From NCBI RefSeq assembly GCF_001579845.1, contig NZ_CP007440.1, forward strand, positions 4,362,029 to 4,426,028: a stretch of 64,000 nt of DNA. The letters are read 5' to 3'. The notes under the pieces were generated by a model that saw only the letters and a program-made list of their open reading frames with translations, was not told the origin of the DNA and searched no databases. A program made the position numbers and the translations under genes. Shown one piece after another: positions 51,322-53,225 of the stretch (the first letter of the stretch is position 1; every line of letters begins with the position of its first letter). This stretch comes from Rhodoplanes sp. Z2-YC6860. Lineage in GTDB: Bacteria > Pseudomonadota > Alphaproteobacteria > Rhizobiales > Xanthobacteraceae.

Positions 51322-51948
51322 ATGACGACGCCGGAGACGACGCCGAAAACATCGCGGGACGCGGCCGCGACGCTGGCCGTACCACCGCCGGCCCCTGCGG
51401 CACCGGCGGCCGTGTCCGCGCCCTGGTATTCGCGCTTCGGCAACCTTGCGCAGATCGCCTCAGCCGTGATCGCGCTGGTCGGCTTCGCGGTGGTGATCTT
51501 TCAACTCAACGACAACCGCAAGAAATCGGAAGCTGAGGCTTATCGCGCCGAACTCGCCGACGCGCGGCGCAACTACGCAACCTACAGCGACGCGATCTTG
51601 CGCTATCCGCATCTGTCCGATCCCGACTATGCGGCGCTGATGCGCAACCATAATGAGTACCTGCGCTACCAGGCCTTCGTGAGCCACATGATCTACGCCT
51701 ACGATGACATCTTGAATGTTGTGCGAGGCGGCGGCGACAACGAGGGCATCAAGGAATGGCTGACGGCGTTCCAGGTGGATATCAGGCTCCACCGCCGCTA
51801 CCTGTGTCATCCGGCCGACAAGCGCTTTACCGAAACCTACCGGCCGTTCATGCAAAAGCTTTTGAAAGACGCTGCCGGCGACTGCAAGGATGTGCCGGAG
51901 TTGGTGGAAGCCACAAAGCCGCAAGGCTCGCCTGCCGTCAACGATTGA
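51322..51948 (+). CDS. Uncharacterised membrane-anchored protein
   Basis: A 208-residue protein not recognised as any family. The first 35 residues are Pro/Ala/Thr-rich (APAAPAAVSAPW), then one membrane helix IASAVIALVGFAVVIFQL (about 46-63) and a basic-acidic coiled region NDNRKKSEAEAYRAELADARRNY. The remaining 110 residues are soluble and helical, with aromatic and charged residues (HNEYLRYQAFVSHMIYAYDDILNVV) and two Cys. Looks like a single-pass anchor with a cytoplasmic helical domain. Sixty-three bases after the Bug gene; may be separate. Confidence 0.7.
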   Translation: MTTPETTPKTSRDAAATLAVPPPAPAAPAAVSAPWYSRFGNLAQIASAVIALVGFAVVIFQLNDNRKKSEAEAYRAELADARRNYATYSDAILRYPHLSDPDYAALMRNHNEYLRYQAFVSHMIYAYDDILNVVRGGGDNEGIKEWLTAFQVDIRLHRRYLCHPADKRFTETYRPFMQKLLKDAAGDCKDVPELVEATKPQGSPAVND

Positions 51949-51996
51949 CACCGCCCGCCAAGCGGTAGCAAAAGACGCCTGTCGGCATCGCGCCGG

Positions 51997-52029
51997 CCCG
52001 GTCGCAGCCTACCCGGTAAAAACAAGGAG
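51997..52029 (+). promoter_or_regulatory. Candidate class I preQ1 riboswitch upstream of queD-queE
   Basis: The sequence has a 4-bp P1 stem (CCGG at 51998-52001 with CCGG at 52013-52016), loop UCGCAG-CCUAC, and an A-rich tail UAAAAACAAGGAG. The loop start UCGCAG and the tail CAAGG match the well-known Thermoanaerobacter preQ1-I aptamer. The pseudoknot pairs G52007-C52023 and C52005-G52026 are available, and C52012, just before the P1 3' strand, fits the preQ1-pairing cytosine. Here the tail contains the AAGGAG ribosome-binding site for the leader ORF, so ligand binding would hide it and reduce queDE translation. Confidence 0.7.
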
Positions 52030-52035
52030 CCCAGT

Positions 52036-52131
52036 ATGAGATTTCCGGCCCGTTGGGTCGGGCACGGCGGCATTGTCCGCCGGCCTGATCTCCACGTCGT
52101 CCACCCGCGCTTCGCCCGCCCGGCGAACTAG
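52036..52131 (+). CDS. 31-codon leader ORF, in frame with queD
   Basis: ATG at 52036 stands six bases after the AAGGAG in the riboswitch tail. The frame encodes 31 residues (MRFPARWVGHGGIVRRP, then DLHVVHPRFARPAN) and ends at TAG (52129-52131). queD begins nine bases later in the same frame. The peptide has no recognisable family. It may be a translated leader that couples riboswitch control to queD by re-initiation, or an N-terminal extension lost by the amber codon. Translation is inferred from the ribosome-binding site. Confidence 0.5.
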   Translation: MRFPARWVGHGGIVRRPDLHVVHPRFARPAN

Positions 52132-52140
52132 CGGTGGCCC

Positions 52141-52497
52141 ATGTATACGATCTGCAAACGCTTTGCGTTCTCGGCCTCGCACGTCATCGGCGGGCTTGCT
52201 CCCGACCATCCCTGCGGACGACTGCACGGTCACAACTACCAAGTCGAGGTGAACCTGCAATCCAGCGCGCTCGACGACACGGGTTTCGTGCGTGACTTTC
52301 ATGAACTTGCCGCCCTGAAGCAGTTCATCGACGGCACGCTCGACCACAAGCACCTCAACGACGTTCTTGGCCACGATCGCACCACCACGGAGGTGATCTG
52401 CAAGTGGCTGTATGACTGGTGCAAGACGCGATGGCCGGAGGTCACGGCCGTGCGTGTCAGCGAAACGCCCAACACTTGGGCCGAATATCGGCCATGA
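52141..52497 (+). CDS. queD: 6-carboxy-5,6,7,8-tetrahydropterin synthase QueD
   Basis: Makes 6-carboxytetrahydropterin from dihydroneopterin triphosphate, an early step to queuosine. The 118-residue protein has the zinc ligands His14, His29 and His31 (FSASH and CGRLHGHN), with catalytic Cys25, and a typical LDHKHLND segment followed by PTTE-like [35 protein letters not shown]. The direct ribosome-binding site before its ATG (GGTGG) is weak, while a strong one lies in the riboswitch tail upstream of the leader ORF, suggesting coupled translation. Its stop overlaps queE by four bases. Confidence 0.95.
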
Positions 52498-53225
52498 AGG
52501 AGACCATCCGGATCAGCGAGATCTTCGGGCCGACCGTGCAAGGTGAGGGTCCGCTGATCGGCAGGCCGGCCGTGTTCGTCCGCACCGGCGGCTGCGATTA
52601 CCGCTGCGCGTGGTGCGATACGCTTTACGCTGTGCTGCCCGAATACCGCAGCGAATGGACGCCGATGACACCCGAGCAAATCGTCGCGCGCATCGATGAT
52701 CTGACCGCGGGCCATCCGATCCCGGTCACGCTCACCGGCGGCAACCCGGCCACACAGCCGCTCGAGCCGTTGATCGAACTCGGACGCGCGCGGGGTCACG
52801 GCTTCGCGGTGGAGACTCAGGGCAGCGTGGCGGCGCCCTGGTTCGCTGCGCTCGATTGGCTGATCCTGAGCCCAAAGCCGCCGTCATCGGGCATGACAAC
52901 CGATTGGGATGCTCTCGATGCCTGCCTTGGCGCAGCCGGGCAGGGACCGCGCGTGGTGCTGAAGGTCGTTGTGTTCGACGACGCCGACTTCGCCTATGCC
53001 AAGGATTTGTCGAGCCGCCACCCGACGCTCCCGGTGTACCTTCAGGTCGGCAATCCGGCGCCATTGATCGCGGCTGACGGCCGGCAATCTGAAGACGCCG
53101 ACATGGATGATCTTGGCGCACGCCTGCGCTGGCTGATCGGACGGGTGACGGACGATCGCTGGTTCAGCGCGACCGTGCTGCCGCAGCTTCACGTGCTGGC
53201 CTGGGGCAACAGGCGCGGCGTCTGA
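52494..53225 (+). CDS. queE: 7-carboxy-7-deazaguanine synthase QueE
   Basis: A 243-residue radical SAM enzyme that rearranges 6-carboxytetrahydropterin to 7-carboxy-7-deazaguanine. The cluster motif is [10 protein letters not shown] (Cys34, Cys38, Cys41), the QueE type C-x3-C-x2-C, after [32 protein letters not shown] and AVETQGS are the SAM and substrate segments; [10 protein letters not shown] follows. The ATG at 52494 overlaps the queD stop (ATGA). queC, the next step, is not present in the window and must be elsewhere. Confidence 0.95.

Follow-up and report, generated by a model that had tools for sequence, protein, structure and literature searches.

Does the short element ahead of queD and queE in Rhodoplanes sp. 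Z2-YC6860 sense preQ1, and if so, how could it govern genes whose start codons it does not adjoin? An earlier note on the window (the whole 64,000-nucleotide stretch of DNA analysed here) had read a class I preQ1 riboswitch at this place. Here, we propose that the element is very probably a preQ1-sensing riboswitch of class I, type II-like, that acts on translation, a reading drawn from sequence comparison. It agrees with the class assignment of the earlier note, which is supported by covariation in the P1 stem, the AC before its 3' strand, the A-rich L3, the Shine-Dalgarno sequence in the tail and the link to queuosine (que) genes.

The element in the window and its subtype

The 4-bp P1, UCGCAG loop, A-rich tail and CAAGG that had been claimed can all be read, letter by letter, on the forward strand at 51998-52029. 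The 5' strand of P1 (CCGG, 51998-52001) is followed by L1 (UCGCAG, 52002-52007), the expected partner of the tail, by L2 (CCUA, 52008-52011) and by the specificity C at 52012, the predicted preQ1 partner, with an A before it. Then come the 3' strand of P1 (CCGG, 52013-52016), L3 (UAAAAA, that is a U and then five A, 52017-52022; its length varies among relatives) and the tail CAAGGAG (52023-52029), expected to be at once the 3' side of the pseudoknot and the Shine-Dalgarno sequence (AAGGAG, 52024-52029). The expression platform of A-rich L3 and Shine-Dalgarno sequence is present in the window as UAAAAACAAGGAG, with an ATG 8 nt behind AAGG. P1 is indeed one pair short, as had been noted, the fifth pair being an unpaired C.U. 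We have high confidence in the element as a candidate preQ1-I riboswitch, with binding predicted from these features.

Some computed properties weigh against the candidate. Pseudoknot-free folding of the window leader did not choose P1 and was no better than shuffles (z=+0.67), in a nested calculation that is blind to a ligand-bound pseudoknot, and a promoter scan found none. No intrinsic terminator was found on the forward strand, the single terminator-like site being on the minus strand. Upstream of the element lies a 208-aa ORF (51322-51948), for which Pfam and NCBIfam gave nothing at E<=0.001.

To which subtype would such an element belong? The three preQ1-I subtypes were reportedly defined by McCown in 2014. 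According to PMC11625349, they are distinguished by the letters before the P1 3' strand, UC in type I and AC in type II; type III likewise has AC, but also a pyrimidine-rich loop and a UU beside the 5' strand. The window has A52011 and C52012, as the type II rule states and not the UC of type I, and it has UC and UCGCAG where type III would have UU and a pyrimidine-rich loop. Judged on its letters by the published rule, the candidate is a preQ1-I element of type II, with an additional CCU.

This CCU recurs at the end of L2. Among 65 real elements the ending is CCU in 54, CCC in 6, CUU in 4 and CUC in 1, and it adjoins AC even in elements with an insertion of as many as 4 nt ahead of it. We hypothesise that the CCU of L2 (52008-52010 in the window) could pair with the AGG of the Shine-Dalgarno sequence (52025-52027). 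C9-C10-U11 pair with A28-G29-G30 in this way in the type III structure from E. coli (PMC10622847). Five of the six CCC elements have GGG tails, but these are related to one another; three or more G are found with 39 of 145 CCU elements, and the CUC element (L005) misfits the CCU-AGG idea.

Covariation, annotation and distribution

If the element is a structured RNA, P1 should keep its pairing while its letters change. The set in which this was examined came from 201 places and, once L059, a coding match, had been dropped, contained 156 distinct elements; the scripts that gathered it demanded the tail, the specificity C and the inner two pairs of P1. Pairs 3 and 4 are each C-G, G-C or U-A, paired in 156/156 and 155/156 elements respectively, and pair 5 is paired in 105/156 with six pair types. 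All three are above the highest counts reached when the 3' partner was shuffled 1000 times (153, 138 and 95), a comparison that is generous because the elements are related; at pairs 6 and 7 the shuffles were not exceeded among the 156 distinct elements. Weighing against the covariation, sliding the 3' partner by one still left 140/156 paired at pair 3 and 142/156 at pair 4, a control that is weak because CCGG is self-similar. The invariant-looking CCGG/CCGG of the window's own P1, which adds no covariation, also weighs against it. On this alignment, compensatory changes have kept a short hairpin P1.

L1 is UCGCAG in 148 of the 156 distinct elements (UCGCGG in 6, UCGUAG and UCGAAG in 1 each), a sequence that the search pattern imposed in 118 of the 201 places. 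With UCGCAG and ACAAGG both conserved, there is too little variation for covariation between them, and the one element with UCGAAG (L127) has an unchanged tail. The specificity C stands in the window and in all elements listed, for which it had been a requirement of both the scripts and the named-genome pattern.

In the loci tested, standard annotation passes over these elements. A scan with the Rfam PreQ1-I model, which the earlier note had proposed as a check, ended below the gathering score: RF00522 aligns on the window element at 14.7 bits (E=5.3), where 39 bits would be required. There was no Rfam match at threshold in the whole window, and of the three matches that 51500-52500 gave with E up to 10, none was to RF01054 (preQ1-II) or RF02680 (preQ1-III). 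At threshold, RF00522 recovered 0/20 and 0/18 related loci (one record, L117/L178, is in both sets) and none in 289 sampled class genomes; the B. subtilis control passes. When E up to 10 was allowed, it matched in 10 of 16 related loci at 21.1-28.5 bits, always on the element, and not in the other six; the best sub-threshold score among the tested loci was 28.5 bits. A gathering score is an annotation threshold and says nothing of the RNA property itself. Going by these alignments, the element belongs to a widespread group that is missed by standard annotation in the loci tested.

How widespread is this group? A blastn search with 49 nt found near-identical elements on Microvirga replicons (E=7e-8) and, at 1e-5 to 4e-5, on Mesorhizobium (among the matches listed) and Sinorhizobium replicons, with Sinorhizobium meliloti at E=4e-5; the list of 146 plasmid records includes chance matches at its weak end. 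A repeat with 37 nt gave Pseudomonas and Roseomonas records at E=5, and a search of a phage collection gave no match. A match on a Pseudomonas mendocina plasmid sits among hypothetical genes and was taken as chance.

A gapped pattern scan of named genomes, in which UCGCAG, CCUACCC (with its CCU and AC) and the tail were imposed, returned at least 118 loci. For the 118 matches listed, the first queuosine gene within 600 nt downstream is queC in 106, queF in 6 and queD in 3, the first gene being a queuosine gene in 115; the other three are two loci cut at the end of the stretch (L180, and L253, which shows a queC start) and one shortened queC (L163). Among the matches listed, where queC comes first its start codon follows AAGG at a distance of 7-14 nt. 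The near-exclusive association with queC, queD, queE or queF is one of the grounds on which we favour a riboswitch.

Carriers among the matches listed are, with orders placed from genus names, presumably mostly Hyphomicrobiales and Rhodobacterales, and the group is for the greater part alphaproteobacterial. Further carriers among them are Kiloniella, a Micavibrio MAG and six gammaproteobacterial records, from Pseudomonas (L172, L204), Oceanimonas (L186), Zobellella (L210) and Oceanisphaera (L242, L244). The same element before queC in gammaproteobacterial genera suggests transfer of the operon together with its switch. By annotation, the element adjoins queC and a VUT-family gene in Microvirga, queC-queD-queE in Mesorhizobium and Aureimonas, and queC-queD-queE plus queF in Palleronia and Falsirhodobacter. 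Several records appear under two ids (L051/L190, L117/L178, L118/L156, L075/L162), such that places outnumber genomes. In PMC3766115, preQ1 switches are described as mostly confined to Firmicutes plus one or two proteobacterial lineages, and a survey table there gives 15 Rhizobiales and 15 Rhodobacterales genomes. We did not find the element described in titles and abstract openings of the open-licence literature; McCown 2014 may list some of the sequences.

A covariance model (R1), built from 17 elements with the window's own included, gave a single place at E<=0.5 in the window's 8.19-Mb genome, namely the window element. It matched 34/142 genomes of one distant order at E<=0.01, where queC adjoins the element at all 29 loci (L109-L137), and 2/43 genomes of a second order. 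Matches were found in 91/385 genomes of a class sample at E<=0.5; when que genes were looked for in all 30 listed loci of that sample (L072-L101), nine had one, the window among them, and all eight listed loci with E<=4.4e-4 have one, the window included. In a phylum sample, 14/299 genomes matched at E<=0.01, and the five matches outside the class (L145-L149) had no que gene nearby and were taken as chance. A pattern search found the full element at 24 of 39 places, the other 15 looking like chance, and a reversed-pattern control matched in 13/397 genomes.

Starting from queC, the queC clade in question occurs in 9/289 class genomes and the canonical element in four of these nine, which weighs against; the rest comprise one possible divergent form (L274) and two without the element, with L275 and L276, in which the queC start was not located, left out of this reading. 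The possible divergent form (L274, G716), just 5' of queC, reads CCUG UCGUAG C AC CAGG, and its tail, AAAAACACGAAAG, is without AAGG. Five other loci (L080, L082, L084, L086, L150) have the hairpin part with no tail and no que genes; from their translation (PVAAYP), we have taken these hairpins for coding sequence of other genes. Among ten same-genus genomes, the window's queD had no match better than E=6e-5, and close relatives are uninformative. The earlier note had looked to conservation in relatives as a check of its claim, and the element proves to be kept before queuosine genes far beyond close relatives.

A probable relay to queD and queE

In light of this association, what might the element control in the window? 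Queuosine genes do lie downstream, as had been claimed, with both models over cut-off: queD (52141-52497, forward strand; TIGR03367 at 91.6 bits, cut-off 89.25; PF01242) and queE (52494-53225, forward strand; TIGR03365 at 323.7 bits, cut-off 206.1), whose start overlaps the queD stop (ATGA). The further claim of the earlier note, that the element controls queD-queE, stands as to the genes that follow but not as to the site, the Shine-Dalgarno sequence serving a 31-codon ORF (52036-52131, forward strand) and not queD. This ORF begins at the ATG behind AAGG, stops 9 nt before queD and has no Pfam or NCBIfam match. Since the element is not at queD and its Shine-Dalgarno sequence serves the 31-codon ORF, control of queD and queE is probably relayed by translational coupling through this ORF. 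Elsewhere in the genome lie queC (TIGR00364 over cut-off), followed by a Vut_1 gene, and also queF and tgt.

The element is likely to be a translational OFF switch. Abundant preQ1 would pair with C52012, upon which the tail would fold onto the loop, AAGG would be hidden and initiation would stop. In most relatives, queC and its operon would be switched off directly. With queC elsewhere in the genome, the hidden site in the window would be that of the 31-codon ORF; ribosomes finishing this ORF would reinitiate at queD, and queD and queE would still follow preQ1.

Of the distinct loci read that are without an intact queC behind the element, 10/10 have a relay ORF, by a criterion that was fixed after the first cases had been seen and with the 65-codon shortened queC of L163 excluded from the count. 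In a Xanthobacteraceae MAG (L159) the ORF has 30 codons and ends 9 nt before the next gene. Four sequences from another family (L051-L054) have ORFs of 33, 50, 38 and 44 codons, each with a stop that overlaps the next start, as is also seen in Thioclava (L106, 26 codons) and in L081 (G729, 10 codons); the gene after the latter is a PTPS (PF01242, 70.8 bits) under the QueD cut-off. For two Microvirga plasmids (L031, 4055-4252; L032, 4044-4310) the reading frame is the head of a truncated queC, 65 codons long in the one and 88 in the other, and its stop runs into the start of queE (TIGR04508 over cut-off). The 88-codon queC head passes the QueC cut-off (28.6 vs 22), and the 65-codon head aligns to QueC at E=1e-13. 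Shuffled spacers yield a relay-type ORF at a frequency of 0.005-0.020 (7 loci tested, from about four lineages). The 31-codon ORF and the L159 ORF share no sequence, for which reason we do not take the former to encode a functional leader peptide.

Weighing against a general relay, such an ORF fits in 1/6 queF-first loci among the matches listed (L216); the ORF of L218 overlaps queF further in, and the other four have none. The output of the switch may differ at queF-first loci. These loci (L213, L218, L220 (Ochrobactrum-type Brucella), L173, L216 and L228) have spacers of about 57-95 nt, often with hairpins.

Tentatively, and at somewhat short of even chances, we extend these observations to a large proteobacterial subgroup of preQ1-I that would have both a type II loop (UCGCAG) and an anti-Shine-Dalgarno CCU resembling that of type III, such that the whole AAGG could be locked, and that would keep a shortened queC or a short ORF as a relay to the next cistron when queC leaves the operon. 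The queC-less loci suggest that an operon can lose its first gene yet retain riboswitch control.

Might the short ORF be a shield and not a relay? The same aptamer would then hide the Shine-Dalgarno sequence when preQ1 is bound, and Rho-dependent termination in the untranslated leader would silence queD-queE. An absence of shared sequence between the 31-codon and L159 ORFs is what one would expect if only translation counts, and no forward-strand intrinsic terminator was found that could act instead. The ORF stop, however, overlaps the next start in 8/10 loci and lies 9 nt before it in the other two, which points to coupling, and we consider termination by Rho unlikely, if worth keeping in mind.

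Other readings and related systems

Other readings concern the candidate switch itself, beginning with its ligand. It is improbable that a different 7-deazaguanine, for instance preQ0, and not preQ1, is the main ligand of the aptamer. The products of the downstream queC-queD-queE do make preQ0, and type II aptamers are reported in PMC10622847 to bind preQ0 too, more weakly. On the other hand, queF, which converts preQ0 to preQ1, comes first behind 6/118 listed elements and is in the operon of others, and preQ1 is the ligand for which the type II pocket is known.

We give still less credence to the idea that a queuosine regulator binds the conserved stretch, either as an operator in the DNA or as a leader recognised by protein, and that there is no aptamer. 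CCGG...CCGG is palindromic at the DNA level too, and conservation alone cannot separate DNA from RNA. What argues against this idea is the compensatory change in P1, the variation in loop and linker lengths while both halves stay, the fixed position just before a start codon with the Shine-Dalgarno sequence as the last part of the element, and the sub-threshold matches of an independent Rfam aptamer model, which fall on the element. Chance resemblance, which might be argued from an Rfam score far under threshold, folding no better than shuffles and the incomplete motifs at loci lacking que genes (L080, L082, L084, L086, L150), can be dismissed as exceedingly improbable given that the full-tail element is conserved over families and orders beside queuosine genes.

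Among known systems, the riboswitch reading places the element closest to preQ1-I type II (Thermoanaerobacter tengcongensis, Bacillus subtilis; RF00522), with which it shares the AC, the A-rich L3, a tail Shine-Dalgarno sequence and que genes. Its loop UCGCAG and tail ACAAGG are presumably those of the T. tengcongensis aptamer. Unlike known type II switches, the group often has a P1 of 4 bp (the fifth pair is present in 105/156), an L2 that ends in CCU or CCC beside AC, tested copies that fall under the Rfam threshold and, at loci lacking queC, a relay ORF. Going by what PMC10622847 gives for type III (E. coli yhhQ), the two have in common the AC, AAGG in the tail and a CCU available for AGG, but the present element has UC and not UU beside the P1 5' strand, a loop that is not pyrimidine-rich, an ACAAGG tail with its C and, downstream, mostly queC and not yhhQ.

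The window-type ORF also invites comparison with other short reading frames. In translationally coupled leaders, a short ORF has a stop that overlaps or just precedes the next start. The stop of the window-type ORF likewise overlaps or closely precedes the next start; unlike such leaders, its Shine-Dalgarno sequence is the tail of a candidate riboswitch, and the Microvirga version is visibly a truncated queC.

With a covariance model made for the group, a switch would be annotated in rhizobia, Ochrobactrum-type Brucella and roseobacters, in whose tested loci the Rfam model gave none. S. meliloti depends on queuosine synthesis genes for its nitrogen-fixing symbiosis with Medicago, as seen from the symbiotic defects of queC, queF and tgt mutants in PMC3568095, a paper that renames exsBCD as queCDE and in which the word "riboswitch" does not occur. 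On pSymB of S. meliloti 1021 the element stands immediately 5' of queC, queD and queE, and with the element directly before queCDE, its regulation is testable in that species.
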